This document shows, piece after piece, positions 4,174 to 45,186 of a stretch of 64,000 nucleotides of DNA (position 1 is the first letter of the stretch; every line of letters starts with the position of its first letter). The notes under the pieces were generated by a model. It made no database searches. It had not been told where the DNA came from and was given only the letters and a program-made list of their open reading frames with translations. Source of the DNA: Olleya sp. Bg11-27 (GTDB lineage: Bacteria; Bacteroidota; Bacteroidia; Flavobacteriales; Flavobacteriaceae); the NCBI RefSeq assembly GCF_002831645.1, contig NZ_CP025117.1:496001-560000 (forward strand), written 5' to 3'. Both the position numbers and the translations under genes were made by a program.

Positions 4174-5751
4174 TTAGGCGGACACTGGTCTTAGTTTGAA
4201 AAACTCGATAAAACTATCTGGATTCTCTACAATACCACGTTCTGAAGTTAACTGAATATTGATGTTACGTTCTTTAGCTTTAAAAGCGAAATCATCTAAA
4301 ATTTCGATTATATCGTTATCTAAATATCGTGTTTTCCTAACATCTAATTCTAAAGACGTGTCTCTTGGTAAGCTATCAAGTTCTTTTAAAATGGCTCCTT
4401 TATTAAAGAAAGTAACCTCTTCAGCAAAAGTCATTTTTATTTTATGCATACCATTACTTTTATCTTCGATATGTAAAAAGTGAGAGTTTTGGTAACTCTT
4501 AATTAATATAACAACAATACCAACTAATAACCCTAAACCAATTCCCCATAATAAATCAATAAAAACAATACCTAAAACGGTAATCACAAATGGCACAAAT
4601 TGTTTCCATCCCATATCATACATTTTTTTGAACAATCCTGGTTTTGCTAACTTGTACCCTACAATTAAAAGGATTGCTGCTAAAACTGATAATGGAATCA
4701 TGTTTAATAATTTTGGTATTAAAACAACCGAAATCAACAATAAGAACCCATGAAAAATAGCCGATAATTTGCTACGTCCTCCAGATTGAATATTAGCAGA
4801 ACTACGAACAATTACTTGTGTAATTGGTAACCCTCCAATTAAACCAGAAATAATATTCCCTGTTCCTTGTGCTAATAATTCTCTATTAGTAGGTGTTACA
4901 TTTTTCTCTGGATCTATCTTATCCGTTGCCTCAACACATAGTAAAGTTTCTAAACTTGCTACTAAAGCAATTGTAAACGCGACAATCCATACATCTGGAT
5001 TTGTAATTGCACTAAAATCAGGAAATCTAAACTGTCCTAAAAACGAATCTAAACTCTCTGGAATTGGTACGCTTACTAAATGTGTTTGTGCAATACCTAA
5101 ATTAGTTCCTTTTGTCATAGCAAAATAAACGATACCTATAACTACAGCCACTAAAGGCCCCTGTATTATTTGAAAAAATTTACCTTTTTTAGATAATACT
5201 TTATCCCATAATAATAAGATAGCTAAACCAATAAGACCAACAATCAATGATCCCATAGTAATATGATCAGTAATATTTAAAATGGCTGAAAATGTGTTTT
5301 CTCCCGATAACTCAACAAAACTATCAGCCCCTTCTGGCTCTGAATCGTATCCAAAAAAGTGAGGGATTTGTTTTAGAATAATTATAATTCCAATACCGGT
5401 TAACATTCCTTTAATTACTGAAGACGGGAAATAATACCCAATAACACCGGCTTTTAAAATTCCAAATACGATTTGAATCACTCCTCCTAAGACAACTGCA
5501 ACCAAAAAGTTTTCATACCCCCCCAGTGATACAATTGCTGTTAATACTATTGCTGCCAATCCTGCAGCAGGACCACTAACACCTATTTTAGAACCACTTA
5601 AAGCTCCTACTACAACCCCTCCTATAATACCAGAAATTACTCCTGAAAAAAGTGGAGCACCACTGGCTAGAGCAATACCTAAACATAAAGGTAATGCTAC
5701 AAAAAACACGACTATACTCGCTGGTAAGTCATTTTTTAATGTTTTAAACAT
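4174..5751 (-). CDS. SulP family transporter, probable bicarbonate/sulfate permease
   Basis: A 525-residue inner-membrane permease with the SulP N-terminal pattern NDLPASIVVFFVALPLCLGIALASG, multiple hydrophobic helices, and a short C-terminal STAS domain (about residues 430-515). It is compact and lacks the hydrophilic insertion of the other SulP in the cluster. Upstream in-frame starts exist (an ATG 12 bases earlier and a GTG 21 bases earlier), but the GTG lies inside a hairpin, so I chose the ATG that begins MFKTLKND. The adjacent carbonic anhydrase suggests a BicA-like bicarbonate role; sulfate cannot be excluded. Confidence 0.88.
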   Translation of the reverse strand: MFKTLKNDLPASIVVFFVALPLCLGIALASGAPLFSGVISGIIGGVVVGALSGSKIGVSGPAAGLAAIVLTAIVSLGGYENFLVAVVLGGVIQIVFGILKAGVIGYYFPSSVIKGMLTGIGIIIILKQIPHFFGYDSEPEGADSFVELSGENTFSAILNITDHITMGSLIVGLIGLAILLLWDKVLSKKGKFFQIIQGPLVAVVIGIVYFAMTKGTNLGIAQTHLVSVPIPESLDSFLGQFRFPDFSAITNPDVWIVAFTIALVASLETLLCVEATDKIDPEKNVTPTNRELLAQGTGNIISGLIGGLPITQVIVRSSANIQSGGRSKLSAIFHGFLLLISVVLIPKLLNMIPLSVLAAILLIVGYKLAKPGLFKKMYDMGWKQFVPFVITVLGIVFIDLLWGIGLGLLVGIVVILIKSYQNSHFLHIEDKSNGMHKIKMTFAEEVTFFNKGAILKELDSLPRDTSLELDVRKTRYLDNDIIEILDDFAFKAKERNINIQLTSERGIVENPDSFIEFFKLRPVSA

Positions 5752-5768
5752 GTATAAATTCATTTGCA

Positions 5769-5788
5769 CCACTGCGGAAACGCAATGG
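5769..5788. repeat. Short hairpin in front of the SulP gene
   Basis: CCACTGCG, a GAAA loop, then CGCAATGG form an 8-base stem with one mismatch. It lies just upstream of the SulP start and argues against the GTG start codon. It resembles the other short GC-rich palindromes scattered in this window. Confidence 0.5.
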
Positions 5789-5836
5789 TTATTTTAATAA
5801 TTTTTGTGTGGACAGACTTGTCCTATTTTTTAAAAA

Positions 5837-6127
5837 TTATAAAATGAATTCGGGAGGTGGAAATAATAAATTCTGATGTGGTTTTGGGTAATTTTTGAAG
5901 TAATACCCTAAATTATCCGTCTTTTTTGAAGTTTCAACAAAACCATCCTCTAGGTTTTCTAAAACAAAAGATAGATTTAAGTTTGTTTGTTCTTCTTCTT
6001 CCTCTTCAGATAAGCTATAAAATACAGAAACATCTACAGAATCGTCCATAACAACAATTATAGATGGTGCTGTAATTAGCGCCAAAAATAATACTGTAAA
6101 AAGGATAGAGACTACTTTTCTGTGCAT
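5837..6127 (-). CDS. Small secreted or membrane-anchored protein of unknown function
   Basis: I do not recognise this 96-residue protein. It has a basic start (MHRK), one hydrophobic segment (about residues 5-26) serving as signal peptide or anchor, an acidic run of six Glu near residue 41, and a tail with PKPHQNLLFPPPEFIL. It is the first gene of the SulP/carbonic anhydrase cluster, 64-85 bases ahead of the SulP gene depending on the SulP start used. A TATATTTG box sits shortly upstream of its ATG. Its position suggests an accessory or sensor protein for the transporter; this is a guess from context. Confidence 0.65.
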   Translation of the reverse strand: MHRKVVSILFTVLFLALITAPSIIVVMDDSVDVSVFYSLSEEEEEEQTNLNLSFVLENLEDGFVETSKKTDNLGYYFKNYPKPHQNLLFPPPEFIL

Positions 6128-6146
6128 TTTTTTACTTTGAGAAAAG

Positions 6147-6154
6147 CAAATATA
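6147..6154 (-). promoter_or_regulatory. Promoter -7 box of the SulP/carbonic anhydrase cluster
   Basis: TATATTTG on the minus strand matches the Bacteroidota consensus TANNTTTG and lies 20 bases upstream of the start of the 96-residue gene. I see no good TTG -33 element at 17-20 bases. Confidence 0.45.
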
Positions 6155-6187
6155 TAACTTAAGACACAGTTAAGTGTTAAGGAATAA

Positions 6188-6943
6188 CTAAAAATTATTT
6201 AACATTTTAATGTCCTTTGCATTAATCCAGCCGATTTTCCCGTCTAAAAGTTTAATTTTTCGCCAGTCATTTATAGTATCTAAGACCAACACTTTAGTCC
6301 CTTCATGCAAGACAAAAGCGTCCTTACCATCCGAGTTAGGCTCGGTTTTGACTTCACTTTTTTGTGCAAATACAATTGCAGGATTATCTTTATTATCTAA
6401 AGCCTGTTTCTGAAATGCTAAGCCTACACTAGATAACGACAAAAATAAAAACACAAAACTTAAAATAAAAGACACCCGTTTACTTTGCGTCCCATTTGTA
6501 AAGTAATACATTAAAAACAAGACAATAAACAAAACCATCATTACTATAGCTAATCGTGCCCAATTATCAAACGTCAAGGCATTAGTTACCTTGTTAAAAA
6601 ACCGAGACAATCCTAATTGTGGGACTGCTTGAATCGCATCCACGGTCATCTTTTTAGCATATGCCCTATTATTTAAGATGTCTTTATCTTCTGGTTTAAG
6701 CTGTAATGCTTTTTCATAATAATAAATACTTGGCGCAATATTATTTAACTTGTAATGTGCATTTGCAAGATTGTAATACACCTCTGCCGAATGTTGTTTG
6801 GTCTCTAAAATCGATTCATATTTAGCAATGGCTTCATCAAACTTAGCATCGTTATATAATGCGTTAGCTTGCTCAAAAACAGTTTCGTTTTGCGCCGTTA
6901 GGCTTCCAAAGAAAAAAAAGAGTATGTAAATTATGTGCTTCAT
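6188..6943 (-). CDS. batE: BatE-like TPR and SH3-type protein
   Basis: The last gene of the Bat operon. The 251-residue product has a signal peptide ending at LTAQ, TPR repeats (about residues 20-100) with YNLANAHYKLNN and PSIYYYEKALQLKP, a TM segment near residues 125-145, a second hydrophobic stretch, and a C-terminal SH3-like domain ending IGWINAKDIKML. This order fits BatE of the Bacteroides aerotolerance system, thought to work at the cell envelope with the VWA proteins. An in-frame extension of 20 codons would encode a palindromic repeat (VSLKRKP), so I placed the start at the ATG before MKHIIYILFF. Confidence 0.85.
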   Translation of the reverse strand: MKHIIYILFFFFGSLTAQNETVFEQANALYNDAKFDEAIAKYESILETKQHSAEVYYNLANAHYKLNNIAPSIYYYEKALQLKPEDKDILNNRAYAKKMTVDAIQAVPQLGLSRFFNKVTNALTFDNWARLAIVMMVLFIVLFLMYYFTNGTQSKRVSFILSFVFLFLSLSSVGLAFQKQALDNKDNPAIVFAQKSEVKTEPNSDGKDAFVLHEGTKVLVLDTINDWRKIKLLDGKIGWINAKDIKMLNNF

Positions 6944-6952
6944 TATTATAGG

Positions 6953-6969
6953 TTTCCGCTTAAGCGAAA
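6953..6969. repeat. Palindromic repeat TTTCCGCTTAAGCGAAA
   Basis: A 17-base near-perfect palindrome between batD and batE. Its exact reverse complement occurs at 39066-39082 in front of the RNase H gene. It belongs to a family of short TTCCGC/GCGAAA palindromes in this window. Confidence 0.7.
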
Positions 6970-6983
6970 CTAAAAAATACAGG

Positions 6984-8768
6984 TTATGTAATTTGTTTAT
7001 CAATTAGATTAATTGTTGTTGCCGACTTCTCATAATCTTGCTGCATGGTTACAGTCGTAATAGGCGTATAACGGGCTAGGTCACAATTTTCAAGTATAGC
7101 TTCAAAATCTGTAATCACAGCTTCTTCAACACCTCTTTCCGTTAACAGACTGGTTATTTTATCCTTACTTAAATCAGATGTCTCTATACTTAATCGTCCT
7201 TTTAAGTAATTATGTAATGCTTTTTCCAATGCGATATAAAAAGCTTCTTTTTGACCTAATGCTTTTTTAGCTGCACTCAAATACTTTTTAGCTAGTCGGT
7301 CTGCTTTTCTCTTTCTGTTACCAGAAACATCCGCCTCTCTTTCTTCACGTTTTCTTCTATACAATAGCGCTAAAGGAATAGCTAATAAAGGTCCTAATAA
7401 GCTAGACCAAAAAACTGTTGAATTTAAAAATACTTCTTTTTCTACCTGATTAAAACTAGTCTCTGTTTTTATAGATGCAAACTGATTTTCGTTTATAACT
7501 CCACCCTGCTCTCCATTACTTGTTACTGGCAAATTATTATCCGCTTCTGCATAAATTGGCCCTTCTATAACATTAATAACAATGTCCTTAGACGTTATTT
7601 CTTTATACGTTTCTGTTTTTAAATCAAAGTAAGAAAAACTTACTGGTGGTATTGGAAACTTACCTTTATACTGTGGTACAATAGTATAAGTATCCGAAAT
7701 CTGACCTTGCATTCCCACTGCATTTGTTCTAACATTTTCTAAATGTTCAGGATCATAAACTTCCAGTGTACTAGGTGTTGTTAATTTTGGTAATTGAAAT
7801 AGCTTAAGATTTCCTTTACCCGATACTTCTATTTTAGCCTGTAAAGATTCTGTTGCATTCAAGCTATTTTTTGAAGTCGATACATTAAACTGAAAATCTC
7901 CGACAGCTCCCGTAAAATTAGCAGGCTTACCAGCTTCCGGTAATGCTTTTACATTTATAGTTCTAGTATTAGCAGAAATTGTTCTGTGCACTTGATTAGA
8001 CACTTGTCTACCATAAATATCACGCCTATTAGTTGGCACATCCACTGTAATATCTAAACTTAAAGGCTCTATCACTAAAGCACCTGTTTTTTGTGGATAT
8101 AATACTGTTTTTCTTAAAGTTACAAAACGATACTCTTCACCCTTGTAGGTCCCATTTTGTATTCTAACACCTCTATCATCTATGCTTTGACTCCAAAACC
8201 CATTAAACTTAGGACTTTCAAGCTCTCTATAATTACTAATCCCCGTTCTTGGTGCGACATACAATTTATAAACAACCGTAATAGGCTCGTTTAAATAAGG
8301 ACTACTTTTTGAAACTTCTGTAACTAAATGAATATTTTCCTGTACAATATAATCGGGATCATTAGGGTTTTCAGGTTTCTCTTGCGCTTCTGTAACCTTT
8401 ATTGTTATTGCTGTGGTTTGAAAATCAACGCCATCAATCTCTATTTTAGCTGGAGCAATTGTAAACGTCCCCATCTTCTTTGGTGCTAAAAAATAACTGT
8501 AAATTTTTGTGAATTTACGTCGCTTCCCATCCCAAGAATTACTGACAGACTGATTAGGCCCACCAACGACAATAAAATCCGAAAAACTTGGAGGCGCAAA
8601 GTTATCTCCATCCCTATTCATCTGAAAGTCGATGCGTAAGCGTTCGTTTAAAGCCAATCTTTTCTTACTTACTTTTGCTTGAAAAGTAACCGCGTCATCA
8701 TCCTGCGCCATTACTAATGTAGTGGTGCATGTCAAAAAAAGAGCTACTATGTATTTTAATACTTTCAT
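6984..8768 (-). CDS. batD: BatD-family membrane protein
   Basis: A 594-residue envelope protein with a signal peptide ending at VMAQ, extracytoplasmic BatD (oxygen-tolerance) Ig-like domains through about residue 400, a TM segment near residues 450-470 (FWSSLLGPLLAIPLALLYRR), and a cytoplasmic helical C-terminal domain. In the Bat system BatD is held to be a membrane partner of the VWA proteins BatA and BatB. It starts 3 bases after the stop of a shorter gene that copies its N-terminal half. The order batA-batB-batC-batD-batE is complete here. Confidence 0.9.
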   Translation of the reverse strand: MKVLKYIVALFLTCTTTLVMAQDDDAVTFQAKVSKKRLALNERLRIDFQMNRDGDNFAPPSFSDFIVVGGPNQSVSNSWDGKRRKFTKIYSYFLAPKKMGTFTIAPAKIEIDGVDFQTTAITIKVTEAQEKPENPNDPDYIVQENIHLVTEVSKSSPYLNEPITVVYKLYVAPRTGISNYRELESPKFNGFWSQSIDDRGVRIQNGTYKGEEYRFVTLRKTVLYPQKTGALVIEPLSLDITVDVPTNRRDIYGRQVSNQVHRTISANTRTINVKALPEAGKPANFTGAVGDFQFNVSTSKNSLNATESLQAKIEVSGKGNLKLFQLPKLTTPSTLEVYDPEHLENVRTNAVGMQGQISDTYTIVPQYKGKFPIPPVSFSYFDLKTETYKEITSKDIVINVIEGPIYAEADNNLPVTSNGEQGGVINENQFASIKTETSFNQVEKEVFLNSTVFWSSLLGPLLAIPLALLYRRKREEREADVSGNRKRKADRLAKKYLSAAKKALGQKEAFYIALEKALHNYLKGRLSIETSDLSKDKITSLLTERGVEEAVITDFEAILENCDLARYTPITTVTMQQDYEKSATTINLIDKQIT

Positions 8769-8771
8769 TAT

Positions 8772-9602
8772 CTACTTAACAACATTTACAGAAACCTTGT
8801 TTGATTTTATTCTTATTGTTTTAGGAACTCTTAAATAGCTCCCAAAAATATCTTTTTTACCTGTGGGAACATCAACAACGACATCAAGAATTACAGGTTT
8901 AACCGTAATTTCACCTTTCCCTTCTGGCTTTAATATCGCTTGTCTATAGACTATCGAGCGATATACACTCCCTCTAAATTCCGTTTGCTCCACTGTAAAC
9001 TGTTTTTTATGCTCCGATTTAATAATACAGTGTTTATAAACTGGTTTTCTAATCTCATAAAAACTAGACATTTCAAAATTTTCAGGAAAATAAATACGAT
9101 GCATAACAGTCAGTGAATCTAATTCATTCAAACTATTTTTAGACACCTCAGTTACAATAAAAACCTTATTTTTAATTGCGCTTTTCGCTTTTTTATTAGC
9201 CCTATGAAGACTCCGTTTTTTAGTCACGCTAATATGCATAGGTTCAGTCTGCAATTGTGTTCCACTAACCTCTATTGTCGCATTACCTATTAATTGTTCT
9301 TCACCAATCACTTTAGGCTTAAGAGAATACTTATATGTTTTTGAAAAAACCTTTACACCTTTTTCCCAAATAATACTTACAGATTGATTTGGTCCCTGAT
9401 TAATAGTAAAGTTTTTAAATTTTGGAGGAATAAATGTGTCTACTTCTTTATTAAAAACAAACTCTATTTCTAAAACTTCATTTATGGCTATTTTTTTCTT
9501 ATTTACTTTAGCAACAAATCGCAATGAATCTTCATTTTGAGAAAAAACAAAAGGAGTATAAAGTCCAATCAAAAGAACTACTATGTATTTTAATACTTTC
9601 AT
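8772..9602 (-). CDS. Truncated BatD paralogue, N-terminal domains only
   Basis: A 276-residue protein clearly homologous to the first half of the adjacent BatD: both begin MKVLKYIV, share GPNQSVS, and share VTEVSK and VDVPT-(N/G)-(R/K)-(R/K)-DI motifs in the same order. The two genes are also identical over about 27 bases around their start codons, which supports tandem duplication. It has a signal peptide (to VFSQ) but ends before the TM and cytoplasmic domain of BatD, so the product should be soluble in the periplasm. The start codon is 5 bases after the batC stop; an upstream in-frame start would overlap batC. Confidence 0.85.
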   Translation of the reverse strand: MKVLKYIVVLLIGLYTPFVFSQNEDSLRFVAKVNKKKIAINEVLEIEFVFNKEVDTFIPPKFKNFTINQGPNQSVSIIWEKGVKVFSKTYKYSLKPKVIGEEQLIGNATIEVSGTQLQTEPMHISVTKKRSLHRANKKAKSAIKNKVFIVTEVSKNSLNELDSLTVMHRIYFPENFEMSSFYEIRKPVYKHCIIKSEHKKQFTVEQTEFRGSVYRSIVYRQAILKPEGKGEITVKPVILDVVVDVPTGKKDIFGSYLRVPKTIRIKSNKVSVNVVK

Positions 9603-9607
9603 TATAA

Positions 9608-10435
9608 CTACCAATCTTTCTCTGTCTGCTGTTTAGCTCCTTTTACCTTTTCGGCATTTATTTTCTCTTGAACCTTTTGTTCTTGATTATTCATCGCTTC
9701 TAACAAGTTTTTAATTTGCTGAGGAGACATTTGACCTGGTTGTGGTTGCTTCTCTTCATTTTTCTGATCACCTTCCTTTGGATCATTTTCTTTTTCATCC
9801 TTAGGCTCTCCCTCTTCATCCTTATCCTGATCCCCTTCTTTCTTATCCTTATCACCTTGATCTTCCTGATCTTTCTTATCCTCGTCCTCTTTTTTATCCT
9901 CGTCTTTCTTCTCGTCTTTGTCTTTATTGTTATCGCCTTCTTTATCGTCGTCTTGAGGATTATCATCCTCCTGTTGTTTTGCACACTCTTTAGCTATTGC
10001 AAAATTATATCTAGTCTCATTATCCGATGGGTCATTTCTAAGCGCACTTTTATAAGCCTCCACAGCTTCTTTACACTTTTTTTCTTCCATTAAAATATTA
10101 CCTATATTATGAAAGGCTTTATGTTTATCAGACTTATTTATAGCATTTTTTGCAGCTTGTTGATTCCGGTACAATGCTTCTCCAAAATTACCTTTTTTAA
10201 AGTACTGGTGTCCTAAATTATAAGCACCTGTGACTTCTGTCGGCTTTATAGATAATGCTTTACGGTATTCCATTTCTGCTTCAGCAAAAGCATCACTATT
10301 TGCCAAATCATTAGCTTCTGCCACAAAACCTTGTGCTTTCAACTTTTGTTTTAGTGCTGCTTTATCCTCTTCTTGCTCCTGCGCAACAACAGTTATTGAT
10401 AAAAACAGCAATATGTAGGTTAAAATATTTTTCAT
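9608..10435 (-). CDS. batC: BatC-like TPR protein with charged tail
   Basis: A 275-residue secreted or anchored protein: signal peptide to VVAQ, TPR repeats (about residues 35-150), then a very acidic and lysine-rich low-complexity tract of about 75 residues made of Asp, Glu, Lys, Asn and Gln, followed by a short helical end (QMSPQQIKNLLEAMNNQEQKV). The TPR-plus-charged-linker build and place after batB match BatC. The low-complexity tract produces long spurious reading frames on other frames. It probably acts as a protein-interaction module at the envelope. Confidence 0.85.
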   Translation of the reverse strand: MKNILTYILLFLSITVVAQEQEEDKAALKQKLKAQGFVAEANDLANSDAFAEAEMEYRKALSIKPTEVTGAYNLGHQYFKKGNFGEALYRNQQAAKNAINKSDKHKAFHNIGNILMEEKKCKEAVEAYKSALRNDPSDNETRYNFAIAKECAKQQEDDNPQDDDKEGDNNKDKDEKKDEDKKEDEDKKDQEDQGDKDKKEGDQDKDEEGEPKDEKENDPKEGDQKNEEKQPQPGQMSPQQIKNLLEAMNNQEQKVQEKINAEKVKGAKQQTEKDW

Positions 10436-10492
10436 TTAAATTTTATAACTTGTAAATATACTAAAGGCTTTGAATGGTTGATGTTAAGGGTT

Positions 10493-11530
10493 TTATAAAT
10501 TCTCGTTAAATAGATTTAATTTTTTCAACCAAGTTGTTTTTCTTTCTAATAAGAAAATATCGATTAAAAACAATAAAATCGCTAATCCTAAAAACCACTG
10601 AAATCTACTCTCAAAATTCGCAACCTGTTTAGCCTCAAATTCTTTTTTATCCATTTTATTTAAAATGTCAGTCATTTGACTCACCACTTTATCTGTATTT
10701 GCACCATTAATATAAACCCCATTCGCCTGATCAGCAATATTCTTTAAGGTTTCTTCATTAAGCTTTGTGATAACAGTCTCGCCTTGTTTATCCTTTTTAT
10801 AACCAACCAATGCGCCTTTTATCCTTAACGGTATTGGTCCTCCTTTAACCTCTCCAACACCTATTGTAAATATTTTGATACCTTCTTTACTCGCTTCTTC
10901 TGCGACTTGCGTAGCTGCTTCGCTATGATCTTCTCCATCAGATATTATAATTAACACACGATTGGTTTGCTCGTCGTCGTCATAATACGTTTTTGCTAAA
11001 TTAATAGCCTCGTTTATTGCAGTTCCTTGAGAAGACAGCATATCTGTATTCATATTCTGCAAAAACATTTTTGCAGCAGCATAATCTGTTGTGATTGGCA
11101 ACTGCGGAAATGCTTTTCCTGCATAAGCAATAATCCCTACACGATCACTCCCTAAGTCGTCTATAATCCTAGAGACTAACTGTTGTGCTTTTTTAAGTCT
11201 ATTTGGCTTAATATCTTCCGCCAACATACTTTTAGAGACATCCACTGCAAAGACAATATCTACACCTTCACGCTTTACGGTTTCTAAACTAGTCCCTACT
11301 TTTGGATTGACTAACGCTAACGACAAACTAGCAAAAGCTAAACACAATACGACTAATTTTAACACCGATTTAAACACCGATTGGTTTGGGCTTAAACGCT
11401 TTAACAATGCTTTATTAGCAAACTTTTTTTGTGTGCGCTTTTTCCAAAATTGTAACAGCAAAAAGAAGACTACTAACACTGGAATAACCAGTAGTGTCCA
11501 AAACCATATTTTTTCTTCTATTTGAAACAT
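10493..11530 (-). CDS. batB: BatB-like VWA domain membrane protein
   Basis: A 345-residue protein with two N-terminal TM segments (about residues 10-26 and 57-77), a von Willebrand factor A domain holding the MIDAS motif DVSKSM, and a C-terminal TM segment near residues 310-330. The topology places the VWA domain on one face of the inner membrane, as in BatA and BatB. It follows batA by about 95 bases that contain a palindromic repeat. The family assignment is firm; the ligand is unknown. Confidence 0.9.
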   Translation of the reverse strand: MFQIEEKIWFWTLLVIPVLVVFFLLLQFWKKRTQKKFANKALLKRLSPNQSVFKSVLKLVVLCLAFASLSLALVNPKVGTSLETVKREGVDIVFAVDVSKSMLAEDIKPNRLKKAQQLVSRIIDDLGSDRVGIIAYAGKAFPQLPITTDYAAAKMFLQNMNTDMLSSQGTAINEAINLAKTYYDDDEQTNRVLIIISDGEDHSEAATQVAEEASKEGIKIFTIGVGEVKGGPIPLRIKGALVGYKKDKQGETVITKLNEETLKNIADQANGVYINGANTDKVVSQMTDILNKMDKKEFEAKQVANFESRFQWFLGLAILLFLIDIFLLERKTTWLKKLNLFNENL

Positions 11531-39090: not shown

Positions 39091-39732
39091 ATGGGTAAAA
39101 AAAAGAAAAAATACTACACCGTTTGGCAAGGACACCACAAAGGCGTTTTTGAATCTTGGAATGATTGCAAAGCGCAAATCAAAGATTATCAAGGTGCCCA
39201 ATACAAATCATTTGCCACCTTTGATGCTGCCAAAGAAGCTTTAAAAGGCAACTACTTTGACTATATTGGAAAAAAGAAAGGATTTACCAGCGAGTTAAGC
39301 CATGAACAACTTAAAAAAATTGGTCGTCCTAATTACAATTCTATATCCGTGGATGCAGCCTCTTCCGGTAATCCTGGAATAATGGAATATCGTGGTGTAG
39401 AAACAAAATCTAAAAAACAACTATTTAAACAAGGCCCTTTTGCTGAAGGCACCAATAATATTGGCGAATTTTTGGCTTTAGTGCATGGTTTAAGCTTTTT
39501 AAAAAAACACAATAGCGACTTACTTATCTACACAGACTCTAAAACTGCTATGAGTTGGGTCCGCAAAAAAACATGTAATTCTAAACTAGAACGTAACGCA
39601 AAAAACAAACCGGTCTACGATTTGGTTGACCGTGCCGTTAATTGGTTAAAAGAAAACGATTATAAAACCACTATCGTTAAATGGGAAACCAAAGCTTGGG
39701 GAGAAATACCTGCAGATTTTGGTCGTAAATAA
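39091..39732 (+). CDS. Ribonuclease H with N-terminal viroplasmin domain
   Basis: A 213-residue protein. An N-terminal viroplasmin/RNase H1 hybrid-binding domain (about residues 4-50, YYTVWQGHHKGVFESWNDC) is followed by an RNase H fold with catalytic acids in SVDAASSGNPG, NNIGEFLAL and IYTDSKTAMSW. It should degrade RNA in RNA:DNA hybrids. Its last 15 codons including the stop are the left copy of a 45-base direct repeat whose second copy lies 4.4 kb downstream, so this 3' end has served as an integration site that leaves the protein unchanged. Confidence 0.92.
   Translation: MGKKKKKYYTVWQGHHKGVFESWNDCKAQIKDYQGAQYKSFATFDAAKEALKGNYFDYIGKKKGFTSELSHEQLKKIGRPNYNSISVDAASSGNPGIMEYRGVETKSKKQLFKQGPFAEGTNNIGEFLALVHGLSFLKKHNSDLLIYTDSKTAMSWVRKKTCNSKLERNAKNKPVYDLVDRAVNWLKENDYKTTIVKWETKAWGEIPADFGRK
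39688..39732 (+). repeat. Left direct repeat (att-like), 45 bases
   Basis: The last 45 bases of the RNase H gene, running from ACCAAAGCTTGGGG to CGTAAATAA. They are identical to 44137-44181. A short dyad, ACCAAA near one end and TTTGGT near the other, lies within it. Confidence 0.9.
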
Positions 39733-39738
39733 AAGATG

Positions 39739-40104
39739 TTAACTTTCTAATTGTCCAATTTTTGCTTTAAGCTCATTTATTAAAACATTTTGTTCCAGCA
39801 ACCTGATCTCAAACTGTTCAATTAGCTTTTCAGATAGCTGGTTAATTGTACCGCTATTGTATAATGCACCATTATTAGTGTTTATGGTATCTACTTTTAT
39901 ATTGTCTTGCTTTATGATGTCTTCGGGTTTTATTTCAAAATATTGGCCAATAGCCAATAAATGCGTTGCCCAAGAGTTACTATTACCACCTTCAATTCTG
40001 GCATAAGCAGACTGAGATATTTTTAAAACCTCTGCTAAATCCTCTTGCGTCTTACCTTTGTCCAATCTTAGACGTCTAATTCTTTCACCAATAACTGTAT
40101 TCAT
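39739..40104 (-). CDS. XRE-family HTH transcriptional regulator
   Basis: A 121-residue DNA-binding protein: an HTH_3 domain at about residues 4-60 (GERIRRLRLDKGKTQEDLAEVLKIS then QSAYARIEGG) and a C-terminal helix likely to form a coiled coil for dimerisation (SEKLIEQFEIRLLEQ). It is divergent from the secreted-protein operon and probably controls it and itself; an ACCCT-N5-AGGGT dyad lies in the shared 172-base region. Its stop lies 6 bases from the left repeat, so it is the first gene of the island. Confidence 0.88.
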   Translation of the reverse strand: MNTVIGERIRRLRLDKGKTQEDLAEVLKISQSAYARIEGGNSNSWATHLLAIGQYFEIKPEDIIKQDNIKVDTINTNNGALYNSGTINQLSEKLIEQFEIRLLEQNVLINELKAKIGQLES

Positions 40105-40147
40105 TAAAATATTAGATTTTACATAAATGTATTAAAATAATACTTAT

Positions 40148-40162
40148 ACCCTAAAGAAGGGT
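40148..40162. promoter_or_regulatory. Candidate operator ACCCT-N5-AGGGT
   Basis: A perfect 5-base dyad with a 5-base spacer in the intergenic region between the XRE gene and the divergent operon. Spacing fits a small HTH dimer site. Proposed by position only. Confidence 0.4.
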
Positions 40163-40210
40163 TAAATTATTCTATTTTCGGTTTTGAAACATTAAAATTA
40201 CTCAATAAAT

Positions 40211-40238
40211 TTGAAAGAGCTTAATACAAATAACTTTG
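40211..40238 (+). promoter_or_regulatory. Promoter of the secreted-protein operon
   Basis: TTG at 40211-40213, 17 bases, then TAACTTTG at 40231-40238: a full match to the Bacteroidota consensus TTG-N17-20-TANNTTTG, 38 bases before the start codon. Confidence 0.75.
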
Positions 40239-40276
40239 CGCAAGGTTAAAATTTATTAATTTTAAAACTAAACATT

Positions 40277-40570
40277 ATGAAAAAAACGTTAATTATTTTA
40301 GCATTAACTTTATGCGGCACAAATTTTGCCAAAAACTCAGTTGAATTAGAAAACGAATTACCTCTAGATTCTAAATTTAGCATAGAAACTACTTTCAATT
40401 CTAATGATGATTCATGTACTAGATCTTGTTATGCAACTGCAACAAACACCGAAACAGGAGAGACTTATTCAATTTCAGGACTGTCTACTTCAGGAGACTG
40501 CTTTACTGCAGCAGGGAACTGCATCGCCAAACTAAGAATCAGAGTACAAGCTTTTATAGCTGCTAATTAA
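40277..40570 (+). CDS. Small secreted four-cysteine protein
   Basis: I do not recognise this 97-residue protein. The N-terminus is a clear signal peptide (MKKTLIILALTLCGTNFA, cleavage predicted before KNS). The mature part of about 79 residues is rich in Ser and Thr and has four Cys: two in CTRSC, one in GDCF and one in GNCIAK, able to form two disulfides. It has the strongest promoter of the island and is followed by a long hairpin that could keep its expression above that of the next two genes. A secreted effector, toxin or ligand is possible; there is no direct evidence for any. Confidence 0.7.
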   Translation: MKKTLIILALTLCGTNFAKNSVELENELPLDSKFSIETTFNSNDDSCTRSCYATATNTETGETYSISGLSTSGDCFTAAGNCIAKLRIRVQAFIAAN

Positions 40571-40581
40571 CCTCAATACAA

Positions 40582-40615
40582 AACTTTAGGTTTGTTTTTA
40601 AACAGACCTAAAGTT
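40582..40615 (+). other. Intercistronic hairpin after the secreted-protein gene
   Basis: AACTTTAGGT pairs with ACCTAAAGTT, extended by a T-G wobble and TGTTT/AAACA, giving a stem of up to 16 pairs. There is no T tract after it, so it probably acts as an attenuator or an mRNA 3'-end stabiliser between the first and second gene. Confidence 0.6.
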
Positions 40616-40621
40616 AATTAA

Positions 40622-40637
40622 ATTAATTAATTAATTA
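40622..40637 (+). repeat. (ATTA)4 tetranucleotide repeat at the GLPGLI start codon
   Basis: Four tandem ATTA units whose last A is the first base of the ATG. Copy-number change would alter leader length but not the frame. Confidence 0.5.
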
Positions 40638-41464
40638 TGTTAAAAAAAATACTATTTGCATTTTTACTATTCCAATCTTTATTTAGCTATGCTCAAAAAG
40701 ATTCTACACGGATCTTTGAAATAGAATTTATTAGAATGCTGACCCCTCAAAATTCTACAAAAACAATTACTTCAAATTATAAACTAAAAGTTTTCACAGA
40801 GCATAACATTTCAGTTTTCGCAAATAACAATGCAACTAATTTTTCAAACAACTTAATAAACGATGATGATGATGATGCTGTTTTTTACTTCGACCCAAAA
40901 GGTAAAAACATAAGTTTAGTTTATAAAAATTATTCTAAAAACAAGCTTTTATCAAAGGGAAGTATCGCATTTAAAGATTTTACAATAAAAGACTCCCTGA
41001 CAATTTTTAACTGGAATATAACCGAAGAAACTAAAAAAAATCTGGGCTTCAATTGTCAATTAGCAGAAACAACCTTTAGAGGAAGAAACTATAGAGCTTG
41101 GTTTAGCTCAGAATTACCAATTGGAGGACCATGGAAATATGACGGCTTACCAGGAATGATTTTACAGATAGAAACACAAGAGCCTTTTATTAGCTTTAAA
41201 GCATCACAAATCAAAAGCCATAAAATAAAATTACATAACACAAAAAACCCTTTTGAAAACGATAAGTTTGTAACCTGGCAACAATTTAAAGATTTATATA
41301 AAAAAAAGGCCATAGCGCTTAGTAAATACACTACTGAATCTGACTTCACAACTAGCGTCATATCACCGCGTATGGGGATAGAACGTTACATTGAGGAAAA
41401 CGACAAAGATTACACAGCTGATAAAGATTTTGAAAAACTACGCGAGTCTCAAAATGAAAATTAA
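40637..41464 (+). CDS. GLPGLI family protein
   Basis: A 275-residue secreted protein: signal peptide to LFSYAQ, then the hallmark segment GPWKYDGLPGMILQIE (about residues 171-186), a variant of the GLPGLI motif that names this Bacteroidota family. Function of the family is unknown. Members often precede a TonB-receptor-like outer-membrane protein, as here, where the next gene starts inside its last codons (11-base overlap). It is the second gene of the island operon. Confidence 0.85.
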   Translation: MLKKILFAFLLFQSLFSYAQKDSTRIFEIEFIRMLTPQNSTKTITSNYKLKVFTEHNISVFANNNATNFSNNLINDDDDDAVFYFDPKGKNISLVYKNYSKNKLLSKGSIAFKDFTIKDSLTIFNWNITEETKKNLGFNCQLAETTFRGRNYRAWFSSELPIGGPWKYDGLPGMILQIETQEPFISFKASQIKSHKIKLHNTKNPFENDKFVTWQQFKDLYKKKAIALSKYTTESDFTTSVISPRMGIERYIEENDKDYTADKDFEKLRESQNEN

Positions 41465-44130
41465 CTTATATACTAGGTTAATAATAATTTTATTCTTTTG
41501 TATTGTTAATAATACTTATTCCCAGATCTTAAAAGGAACTATTAAAGACAAGAACAACAACCCTTTAAGCGCAAAACTGTTAGTAAAAAAAGCTTCAAAG
41601 CCCGATATAATCTCCGAATTCCACCTTATAAAAAAAAGGTGATTTTTCTTACACCTTAAAAAAAACATACTCTGAGGACCTTATTTTTGAAATACTCGTA
41701 ATTGGCTACGTCACATACTCTGAAAAGATTACTATCAAAGAGTCTAACGATGTTTTTGAACGAAGTATTTATATGATCAAAGAGGAAACTAACAATTTAG
41801 ACGAAGTATTTATAATAGGAAAAAAAGCCCCATTTAAAATAAAAAAGGACACCGTACAATATAACATCAACTCTTACAAGGATGGTACAGAACGAAAACT
41901 TCAAGACATTTTAAAAAAGCTACCAGGTATTGAGGTAAATGAAACTTCTGGTTTAATTAAATATAACGGAAAACTAATTGAAACAGTCACCTTAGAAGGA
42001 GATAATCTTTTTGGTCACAATTACACTTTAGGCACAAAAAACATTAATGTTGATATGGTCGAAGAGGTAGAAGCTATAGAAAATTATTCTAATAACACCC
42101 TGTTAAAAGGCTTAGACCAAGACGGAAAGGTAGCATTAAACTTAAAGCTAAAGAAAAACAGAACAGACATCTCTGGTAATTTAGAATTGGGACTTGGTGA
42201 TTTTAAAGACTCAAGTAAAATCGCAAACAACTCTTCTTTAAATTTATTAGGAATAAATAAATTTTACAAATCGTTTGGTACCGTTTCACTTAATAACGTC
42301 GGTTTAAACAATTCTCCTTTTAATTTTTCTTCCCAAGCTAGCAATATGGAAATCTTACAAGAATTAGACTATTTCTCAGAAAAAATCATACCAGAAGTTT
42401 CTATTTTAAATGTATTAGGAGAAAAAAGAGCAAATATTAACAATCAACTATTTAGTAGCTACAATAGTATTTTCAATTTAAACAAAAAATTAAAAGCAAA
42501 AGTGAATTTATATTATATCCAAGACAAAATAAAAACTATTCAACTTTCTAAAAGTAACTTTACTTTTAATAATGAGGTATTTAATACTTTTGACAATACA
42601 AATACATCAAAAAAACCAATACAATACAGAGGTGATTTAGAACTAAAATATTTTAATTCTAAATCGTCTCTTTTGCGATACACAATAAGTGCTAGAGATG
42701 AAAACATTCAAACTGCATCATCAATTACGTCTAACCAAAACACAAATTTCAACACTAATCTTAACTCAGAAAACACTTTTTTAAAACAACATATAAACTA
42801 CACTAAAAGAATATCAAAACAAAAAGCCTTACAGATCGATTTGCATTTTTCAACAAATGACTTAAATCAGGAATACAACATAAATCCGTCTTTTTTAAAC
42901 ACAAATAGTAATACTTATGACAATCAAAACAACAATCAGAAAAAAAATGTGTTTGAGTTAAAATCAACTTTTTTAGGCATCATAAAAAATAACAAATACC
43001 GTTTTTCTACGGGAGTAAAATCTGATAAACAAACATTTAACTCCGACCTTATTAATCTATCGGAAGACAACTCTACTCTTTTTAATAACGCCGACAATAA
43101 TTTATATTACTCAAAAAAAACAACTTATGCAACAGGGTCTTACAATTGGAATCTAGGTAAATTAAAATTAACCCCAAATGTTTCATTACGACTAATTAAT
43201 CAAAAATTGAATAATCATATTTTAGACGACAATCAAACATATAATATTTTAGTTTTTGAACCCTCTCTGACTCTTTTTTACAAGATTAACTCCGTTTCTT
43301 TTTTATCCAGTAATTTAGGCCTTAATAAAAACACTAACCCAATTCAATATTTATACACAGGAAACATATTAATAAATAACAGAACACTACTTAGCAACAT
43401 ACCTAACCTTACACTGCAAAAAAACCAATCTTACAGTCTTGCTTATAATAAGAATGACCTTTTTAATCAATCACAAATTATGCTTGGAGTAAATTACATA
43501 AAACAAGAAGGTGATTTTTTCTCAAATACAATTATTACTCCCAATTCAAATACAGTTAACTTTTTCTTTCTACCTGAAGCGACAGAAAGCACCAATTTTA
43601 ATTTTAGTTATTCAAAATTTATCTCCGCTTTAAATACCAACCTCAAACTAAGCACATTTCACTCAATTTTTAAATACAAAAATATAGTTAATAATTCTCA
43701 ATTAAGAAATAATACAACTAATCAAACTAAGAGTCAATTATTTTTAAAAACAGCTTTTTCTACACAACTAAATTTTGAAAATGAAACCACTCACGACTAC
43801 AGTAAAACATTAAGCGAACTTACATTCACGAATAGTGCATTTCAAAATAATTTTAAGATAATTTACAAACCATCAAAGCAAATATATGGCACTTTAACTG
43901 CAAACTTTTTTATACCCAATTTAAAGAAAAGATCAGATAGCTTCACTTTTATAGATACAGAAATCTGGTATAAACCAAAAAACAAAAATTGGCAATTAAG
44001 CATTTCTGCTTCCAATCTAACTAATGAGAACAGTTTTTTACAAATTCAAAACAATGATGTTTCTATCAACACATTTAGTAGTGACTTATTAAGTCGTTCT
44101 CTCTTATTAAAATTTAATCACAATTTTTAA
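41454..44130 (+). pseudogene. TonB-receptor-like outer-membrane protein, frameshifted at an A8 tract
   Basis: Two frames join into one protein of about 891 residues. Part one has a signal peptide (to TYSQ) and the start of a carboxypeptidase-regulatory-like domain (GTIKDKNNNPLSAKLLVKK). At 41630-41637 a run of eight A shifts the frame and a TGA follows at once. One A fewer would read on as HLIKKGDFSYTLKKTYSEDL and into a plug domain (LQDILKKLPGIEVNE) and a long beta-barrel. No other lesion is seen over 2.5 kb, so this is either a very recent mutation, a phase-variable switch, transcript slippage or an assembly error. The likely intact role is outer-membrane import, export or surface display, without a recognised substrate. 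Confidence 0.8.
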
Positions 44131-44136
44131 AACCAC

Positions 44137-44181
44137 ACCAAAGCTTGGGGAGAAATACCTGCAGATTTTGGTCGTAAATAA
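44137..44181 (+). repeat. Right direct repeat (att-like), 45 bases
   Basis: An exact second copy of the last 45 bases of the RNase H gene, here without any coding context, 6 bases after the receptor gene's stop codon. It marks the right end of the island. Confidence 0.9.
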
Positions 44182-44259: not shown

Positions 44260-45186
44260 ATGAGCAAGTTAGTAATAGTAGGTACAGTAGCTTTTGACGC
44301 TATAGAAACTCCTTTTGGTAAAACCGATAAAATTCTTGGTGGAGCAGCAACTTATATAGGGTTGTCGGCTTCAAACTTTAACGTAGATCAAGCAGCAGTT
44401 TCTGTTGTAGGTGGAGATTTTCCTCAGGAATATTTAGACCTTTTGACAGATAGAAATGTAAATATCGAAGGTGTCGAAATTGTAAAAGACGGTAAAACGT
44501 TTTTTTGGAGTGGAAAATATCATAATGATATGAACTCTCGTGACACGTTAGCTACGGAATTAAATGTATTAGAACATTTTAATCCTGTAGTTCCTGAAAA
44601 TTATCGTGAAGCAGAGATAGTGATGTTAGGTAATTTACACCCTTTAGTACAACAAGGTGTTTTAGACCAAATGACTAAAAAGCCAAAATTAGCTATTTTA
44701 GACACTATGAATTTCTGGATGGACATCGCCTTAGATGATTTAATTTCAGTAATTAAAAATGTAGACGTTATTACTATTAATGATGAAGAGGCAAGACAAT
44801 TAACTGGAGAATACAGTTTAGTCGTTGCTGCTAGAAAGATTCATGAAATGGGACCAAAATATGTAGTTATTAAAAAAGGAGAGCACGGTGCTTTACTTTT
44901 CCATGATGACCATATGTTTTACGCACCTGCTTTACCATTAGAAGAAGTCTTTGATCCAACAGGAGCTGGAGATACTTTTGCTGGTGGATTTGCTGGATAT
45001 TTAGCAAGCAGTGGAGATATTAGTTTCGAAAACATGAAAAATGCAGTAATCTACGGATCTACTTTAGCATCCTTTTGTGTCGAGAAATTTGGAACAGAAC
45101 GCATGGTAACCTTGAAAAAAGAGGAAGTCAACAAACGTTTGCTGGAATTTAAGAAACTGACACAGTTCGATATAGAATTAACATAA
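44260..45186 (+). CDS. PfkB-family sugar/nucleoside kinase
   Basis: A 308-residue ribokinase-fold kinase with the substrate-lid motif GGAATYIGLSAS and the ATP-site/anion-hole motif DPTGAGDTFAGGFAGYL with its catalytic Asp. The substrate could be a sugar or a nucleoside; position next to purF suggests purine-nucleoside salvage but does not prove it. A strong terminator follows directly. Confidence 0.9.
   Translation: MSKLVIVGTVAFDAIETPFGKTDKILGGAATYIGLSASNFNVDQAAVSVVGGDFPQEYLDLLTDRNVNIEGVEIVKDGKTFFWSGKYHNDMNSRDTLATELNVLEHFNPVVPENYREAEIVMLGNLHPLVQQGVLDQMTKKPKLAILDTMNFWMDIALDDLISVIKNVDVITINDEEARQLTGEYSLVVAARKIHEMGPKYVVIKKGEHGALLFHDDHMFYAPALPLEEVFDPTGAGDTFAGGFAGYLASSGDISFENMKNAVIYGSTLASFCVEKFGTERMVTLKKEEVNKRLLEFKKLTQFDIELT

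Follow-up and report, generated by a model that had tools for sequence, protein, structure and literature searches.

A cassette island between two copies of an RNase H gene end in Olleya sp. Bg11-27, with counterparts at other gene ends in related bacteria

Accessory genes often lie in places where no mobility gene is present, and their arrival there usually goes unexplained. In a stretch of 64,000 nucleotides of the genome of Olleya sp. Bg11-27 (NCBI RefSeq assembly GCF_002831645.1, contig NZ_CP025117.1, positions 496,001 to 560,000; hereafter, the window), the scars of such an arrival can be read: four accessory genes form an island between two exact copies of the last 45 bases of an RNase H1-like gene. 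With a confidence only a little above even, we take this island to be an insertion with a long duplicated target that was made by homologous recombination, and not by a site-specific recombinase. The same site is empty in close relatives and holds different cargo in other genera, and operons related to that of the island are bracketed by the ends of unrelated genes. The features of the locus, in positions of the window, are the following:

39091 to 39732, plus strand: RNase H1-like gene, the target, intact (PF01693, PF00075; orthologues in 10 of 10 genus genomes)
39688 to 39732, plus strand: left repeat copy, the final 45 bases of the RNase H gene including the stop codon (sequence comparison)
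39733 to 39738, no strand: left spacer, 6 bases (sequence)
39739 to 40104, minus strand: XRE-type helix-turn-helix regulator, 121 aa (HTH_19/HTH_3)
40277 to 40570, plus strand: small secreted-looking peptide, 97 aa, no family match (ORF; homologue in genome G329)
40637 to 41464, plus strand: GLPGLI family protein, 275 aa (TIGR01200, E 9e-42; Porph_ging)
41454 to 44130, plus strand: TonB-dependent-receptor-like outer-membrane protein, frameshifted near the 5' end (intact homologues in relatives; structure model)
44131 to 44136, no strand: right spacer, 6 bases (sequence)
44137 to 44181, plus strand: right repeat copy, an RNase H end truncated at its 5' side, which is joined to the native region upstream of pfkB (sequence comparison)
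44260 to 45186, plus strand: PfkB-family kinase gene, the native right neighbour (PF00294; orthologues downstream of RNase H in relatives)

The perfect direct repeat, which a first-pass annotation had noticed from the letters of the sequence, was confirmed at 39688-39732 and 44137-44181, together with the gap of 6 bases between each outer gene and its repeat. Chance would not produce a repeat of 45 bases in such a window: the longest exact repeat measured 15-20 bases in 20 order-1 simulations, and the window contains no other exact repeat of 45 bases. When the whole 4.31-Mb genome was queried with bases 39600-39780 (181 bases), the two repeat sites were the only matches, which answers the suggestion of that annotation to look for further copies. 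Dispersed direct repeats of 30 bases and 80% identity number two in the window, the 45-base pair among them; the second is a repeat of 35 bases with 97% identity (8737-8771 and 9571-9605), whose copies lie 800 bases apart. The G+C content of the insert is 28.4% (vs 33.3% for the window). All four accessory genes are present as described beforehand, apart from the frameshift in the fourth. The island had also been said to lack a recombinase of its own, and indeed Pfam and NCBIfam searches of its proteins revealed none, nor did protein family searches find a transposase in it.

Removal of the island would, as had been pointed out, join the RNase H gene directly to the region upstream of pfkB, and exactly this empty form is present in a near relative, G006 (genomes and loci are hereafter given by G and L numbers, the window genome being G000). 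Among nine congeners, one (Olleya namhaensis, G003) has the same island with both copies and eight have a single RNase H end. The latter comprise (i) the empty sites with one copy that the first-pass annotation had proposed to seek, in G006 (the genome nearest to the window by flank identity), G001, G002, G004, G008, and G009; and (ii) G005 and G007, with a longer spacer of different content.

The islands of the window and G003 have the same joints on both sides, which points to one insertion event. They are 93% identical, and their flanks, compared in 250-base bins, are 82-92% identical on the left (except for the first partial bin, 100%) and 92-99% on the right (except for one bin, 84%). Since the island is about as diverged as its flanks, the insertion is old within the genus (either G006 lost it or the histories are separate), and the recent mobility that had been envisaged is not evident. 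The two copies show no differences in the window and a single one, synonymous, in G003, while three sites differ between the two genomes in both copies, all of them synonymous by codon reading. Given that the copies are alike within each genome and unlike between genomes, either they exchanged sequence after the split or the island was excised and re-entered. The young part of the structure is the identity of the two copies, and not the insertion, and exchange between copies explains it best.

The same gene end is used again in other genomes. A pattern of the conserved RNase H C-terminus, run on 397 genomes of the family, had at least one match in 249 and two matches in five, namely, the window genome, G003, and G185, G295, and G329, the last three being chosen for that reason. 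Two copies were present in 1 of 9 other members of Olleya, in 3 of 51 of the genus of G185, and in 0 of 10 and 0 of 11 of the other two starting genera; 16 further genomes of the family yielded no duplicated RNase H end. At five other RNase H loci, the repeats measure 44-252 bases. The last ~31-45 bases of the gene are common to the RNase H repeats, whose edges lie at -31 to -84 and at ~0 to +120 or more, and the repeat ends at most 3 bases from the stop codon in 8 of 10 cases (two of the eight being one event).

The expectation that different cargo would be found between the same repeats was borne out in G295, G437, G469, G358, and G185. In Jejuia pallidilutea (G329), the RNase H end follows peptide, GLPGLI and receptor genes with 32-54% protein identity to those of the window. 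The copies of G295 enclose a gene whose protein has a secretion sorting domain, along with a small lipoprotein-like gene; the island of G437 carries, among other ORFs, an XRE gene, an SdpI-family protein and an alpha/beta hydrolase; and that of G469 carries a grasp-with-spasm maturation pair (TIGR04192, TIGR04193). One cluster of XRE proteins (C7) is common to the RNase H islands of the window, G003, and G437. The locus of G185 is split by a contig end inside an IS21-like, transposase-like ORF (reading of its translation); the left contig has the XRE gene (HTH_3, encoded on the minus strand soon after RNase H) and the right contig has genes which, from their translations, are grasp-with-spasm-like. 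In G358 (L056, 4317-8294), remnants of hydrolase cargo are followed by a decayed RNase H end and then by lipoprotein remnants resembling those in the G469 grasp-with-spasm island, an order suggestive of serial insertions after RNase H. Weak, decayed copies of the RNase H end before pfkB in G458 (50 bases, 82%) and G451 (31 bases, 84%) suggest an older layer of insertions. A separate direct repeat of 176 bases and 94% identity in L077 (G432; 1618-1793 and 8842-9017) links the RNase H-pfkB interval with a place ~7 kb downstream.

Gene 3' ends restored by a repeat call to mind the cis-mobilizable element (CIME), in which case a tyrosine recombinase targeting the RNase H 3' end would have made the sites, with its integrase lost or encoded elsewhere. 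The position of the repeats at a gene 3' end, mostly at the stop codon, and the insertions that seem to be stacked at one place in G358, G458, and G451, as in CIME accretion (PMC5704250), favor this explanation. Nevertheless, it seems unlikely, as the repeat edges vary, related operons use unrelated genes and also their 5' ends (see below), and no integrase or transposase appears among 25 of the 40 Pfam families, those listed for 43 of 53 proteins encoded in RNase H-pfkB intervals. Similarly, no related element bearing an integrase at the same site was seen among the listed families (43 of 53 proteins, 67 of 75 intervals), within a limited sampling that excludes ten near-duplicates, an astacin-like cluster, proteins of less than 90 aa and intervals without pfkB. 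In the window genome, PF00589 is matched by three proteins, none of them near the island, in a search that covered this family and not, genome-wide, serine recombinases or transposases.

The use of other genes is seen within Olleya itself. In G000, G004, and G006, a related GLPGLI/receptor operon adjoins an endonuclease gene whose 3' end recurs on the far side of the operon, over 85 bases in G000 and 144 bases in G006; in G004, the site has three pieces of a decayed copy, one of which comes from before the start codon. This endonuclease site is filled in three of the 10 Olleya genomes and empty in five (G001, G002, G005, G008, and G009), the other two (G003 and G007) showing neither the operon nor the expected neighbour in the stretch examined. 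Another operon, in G005, has a 116-base repeat of the 3' end of a lipoprotein gene. Beyond the genus, target genes were recognized by reading their translations: (i) a TIGR02757-like gene in Cellulophaga, with a 72-base repeat ending within the stop codon; (ii) the 3' end of an aldehyde dehydrogenase gene in Aquimarina, with a 243-base repeat; (iii) the 5' end of a comM-like gene in Polaribacter, over ~220 bases; and (iv) the 5' end of a DUF423-like gene in a Lutibacter assembly. With those at RNase H included, the repeats extend from ~31-45 bases to fragments of an entire, decayed gene.

When public genome contigs were searched with an alignment of six sequences, at least 47 loci came up, of which 45 were scanned for repeats together with L117 (L181 and L182, with short matches, were left out). 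Among the loci listed, to which all the counts of this comparison refer, a direct repeat straddles the operon in 11 of 46, or 10 of the 37 with enough flank; for control ORFs the figure was 3 of 96, one of the three being itself a second such operon. Without that control and the four loci used to build the query, the proportions are 6/33 and 2/95 (p 0.004), and 4/33 (p 0.04) when only clean gene-end cases are counted. L162 and L175 are not clean cases. The former (4547-8864, Aquimarina) has GLPGLI operons in tandem, and its direct repeat of 317 bases consists of their own upstream regions. In the latter (4804-11012, Flavobacterium azizsancarii), repeats of 353 bases (81%) enclose the GLPGLI/receptor operon, which adjoins a serine-recombinase-like gene and a possible mobilization gene, according to their translations. 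In addition, L150 (3795-8311) has a second GLPGLI/receptor operon beside the first with its own bracketing 113-base repeat (97% identity), and L164 has a transposase-like ORF between 143-base direct repeats (98%; 1-143 and 5952-6094), which may be an assembly overlap.

The origin of the copies can be approached through their differences. After a simple duplication of the recipient's target, the extra copy starts identical and then decays at all codon positions. Differences between copies were computed for 15 copy pairs and summed for 14, as G003 represents the same event as the window. Within coding sequence, 39 of 50 differences are synonymous, against 23.5% expected (p 7e-16); because they are mostly synonymous, the copies look like two functional alleles. 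With wider repeat edges (66 bases in G329, 54 bases in G469), one synonymous and five non-synonymous differences are added (40 vs 16, p 5e-14). L146 and L163 contribute 19 of the 39 synonymous differences, and without both of them the count is 20 vs 10 (p 6e-7); the RNase H loci alone give 15 synonymous vs 5. Decay is visible too, as a nonsense codon in G437 and as changes in G358 and G004.

The Aquimarina locus (L163, in G436) offers a closer view. There, the operon lies between two convergent host genes that abut or overlap in G450, G428, G440, and G455, leaving no room between them, and the aldehyde dehydrogenase site is empty in the Aquimarina relatives of G436. The two 243-base copies match G428 at 234/243 and 235/243 positions, as compared to 82-95% in 120-base windows outside them. 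In the right copy, the close match ends about at the end of the repeat, and in the left copy the mismatches cluster in its last 45 bases. When the intact copy was compared with the rest of its gene, Fisher p was 9e-5 with respect to G428 and 0.5 with respect to G450. Both copies thus seem to have been imported over roughly the length of the repeat, as if the piece of homology had arrived with the cargo.

These observations bear on a true target-site duplication, in which the recipient's own gene end would be copied at a staggered break or by an unknown transposase that makes long duplications of variable length. Long variable duplications have been reported for insertions of restriction-modification genes (PMC1643837, PMC3031569), and copies are nearly identical at L117 and L145 and 94% alike, with a single coding difference, at L120. 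In any case, we hold this origin to be improbable, since the overall excess of synonymous differences gives the copies at several loci the appearance of distinct functional alleles, and those of G436 look imported, both of which argue against a recipient origin of both copies at some loci. Moreover, none of 14 inserts has anchored terminal inverted repeats at p<0.05 (one of the 14, L146, has an unanchored match, p 0.04). Shared transposon ends were likewise sought in 178 comparisons of termini, and rejected: the lowest p values belong to G469/G185 and G437/G358, which have common cargo, and the next ones (G000 and G003 with L156; p 0.02 and 0.03) are as expected by chance.

Under homologous recombination, the incoming DNA would consist of cargo joined to a piece of a gene of the recipient (here, the RNase H 3' end). 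Such a fragment could close into a circle and enter by one crossover, probably RecA-dependent, in the shared piece. The outcome would be the complete gene, followed by the cargo and then by a truncated second gene end that adjoins the native downstream sequence. Homology would stop at the stop codon where donor and recipient share the coding part only, and would extend further where the downstream sequence is also shared (G437, G469). Later, the copies could exchange sequence by gene conversion, or by pop-out and re-entry; they would also allow a clean deletion of the island and could serve as homology arms in a new host. A single scheme of this kind accounts for 3' and 5' ends alike, for the decayed copy of a whole gene, and for repeats whose edge is the stop codon. 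The first-pass annotation had proposed that the cargo was moved in trans or captured as a circle through the 45 bases of identity. Capture through shared sequence fits best; a recombinase acting in trans is unsupported, inasmuch as related operons are bracketed by the 3' and 5' ends of unrelated genes with repeats of varied length. Entry by natural transformation is possible by analogy with Riemerella, a naturally competent member of the same family, although Flavobacterium johnsoniae was not competent under the same conditions (PMC8383284, PMC7965970).

Several points weigh against insertion by a single crossover. Forty-five bases are a short homology for RecA-dependent integration, and no donor genome was identified in which the cargo immediately follows RNase H without a second copy. 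As to the differences, those within one locus are not independent, the count shifts with the chosen repeat edges, and a synonymous excess is slight or absent at L145, L120, G358, G185, and G469. The imported tract was observed at one locus, G436, and the copies of the window, being identical, are uninformative on their origin. Straddling repeats are missing from 27 of the 37 operons, and RNase H recurs as a target in a pattern scan that was aimed at RNase H. Since such an excess is missing at several loci, and clean gene-end cases number no more than four among the new operon loci, our confidence in the single crossover was slightly reduced and that in a true target duplication slightly raised.

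The spread of the cargo is a different matter from its first insertion. RNase H-pfkB intervals measure 68-8528 bases (67 of 75 loci, those where pfkB was found) and hold many different genes, and many intervals with inserted genes have no repeat. Such variety is compatible with allelic cassette exchange, i.e., a double-crossover swap of cargo between conserved flanking genes in which the RNase H fragment arose a single time and travels along as a passenger, and the competence of Riemerella speaks in its favor. As an account of the whole structure it is rather improbable, for it accounts neither for how the copies were formed nor for the like arrangement found at other genes; their later spread may well be due to it. 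Regarding carriers, the RNase H end pattern hit one record among viral contigs, a phage-like contig with an RNase H gene of its own, and the receptor protein had no match in phage records. The GLPGLI protein gave partial, weak matches in 13 plasmid records, none of them covering 80%. Neither carrier was retained.

The cargo itself is linked to peptides and to the cell surface. The 97-aa peptide has four cysteines after its leader, a leader recognized by reading the translation. The frameshift in the receptor-like gene sits in a homopolymer run near the 5' end, with an intact homologue in G003, and could reflect decay, phase variation or a sequencing error. That O. namhaensis homologue has no Pfam or NCBIfam match at E 0.001; its structure model (pLDDT 87) retrieved from the PDB, in the 50 matches listed, TonB-dependent transporters with modest TM-scores (0.29-0.41 by query length), and, judged from this model, the product of the fourth cargo gene looks like a TonB-dependent receptor.

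The structure is real and informative, and what the first-pass annotation said of the island itself, of empty sites, of cargo that changes and of capture by means of identical sequence was correct. The pattern recurs at the same gene in several genera, with GLPGLI/TonB-like operons and grasp-with-spasm maturation genes as cargo, and it suggests that duplicated gene ends need not be target-site duplications, donor homology being another possible source. More tentatively, and as a conjecture to which we would give well under even weight, these islands might be self-perpetuating homology cassettes whose gene-end copies act as attachment sites for general recombination: they would pop out, be taken up by other species and re-enter at the same gene end. 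The RNase H 3' end would then be a common docking site at which surface-protein and peptide-maturation cargo of unrelated kinds accumulates in series across genera. A narrow literature search found no paper on cassettes bracketed by gene ends, which, as no fuller search was made, says little.

Among known systems, the minimal mobile element of Neisseria is a variable cassette between conserved genes, without mobility genes, and in these respects resembles the island; it is not known to be defined by repeats of a neighbouring gene. Transposons and insertion sequences with long duplications differ from the island, which has neither anchored terminal inverted repeats nor a transposase. CIMEs (PMC5704250) share with it the att-like flanking repeats at a gene end, the lack of an integrase and accretion at the end of the target gene, but no integrase-bearing parent was present in the loci examined here, and several unrelated genes serve as targets at both of their ends. 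In laboratory conjugation of Escherichia coli, circles missing part of a homologous fragment gave, by a single crossover, duplications of 109-950 bp in sequenced clones; these recA-dependent crossovers were found during a search for homology-facilitated illegitimate recombination (PMC3240628). Their products have the same order of gene, foreign DNA and partial gene duplicate, although they come from an experiment and not from a natural cassette. Finally, insertion with long target duplication was described in Helicobacter pylori in connection with restriction-modification genes (Nobusato et al., 2000; PMC1643837, PMC3031569, PMC4978471). It is similar in that the insert lies between long direct target repeats of variable length and in being a proposed mode of gene mobility, and also in that an empty one-copy allele exists in a related genome (here, at the RNase H, endonuclease and aldehyde dehydrogenase sites) and the insert has no recombinase. 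Here, by contrast, the cargo is other, the copies are often different-looking alleles and one gene end is hit repeatedly across genera. With these cases, the formation of such insertions, described in Helicobacter in 2000, becomes testable in nature and in the laboratory.

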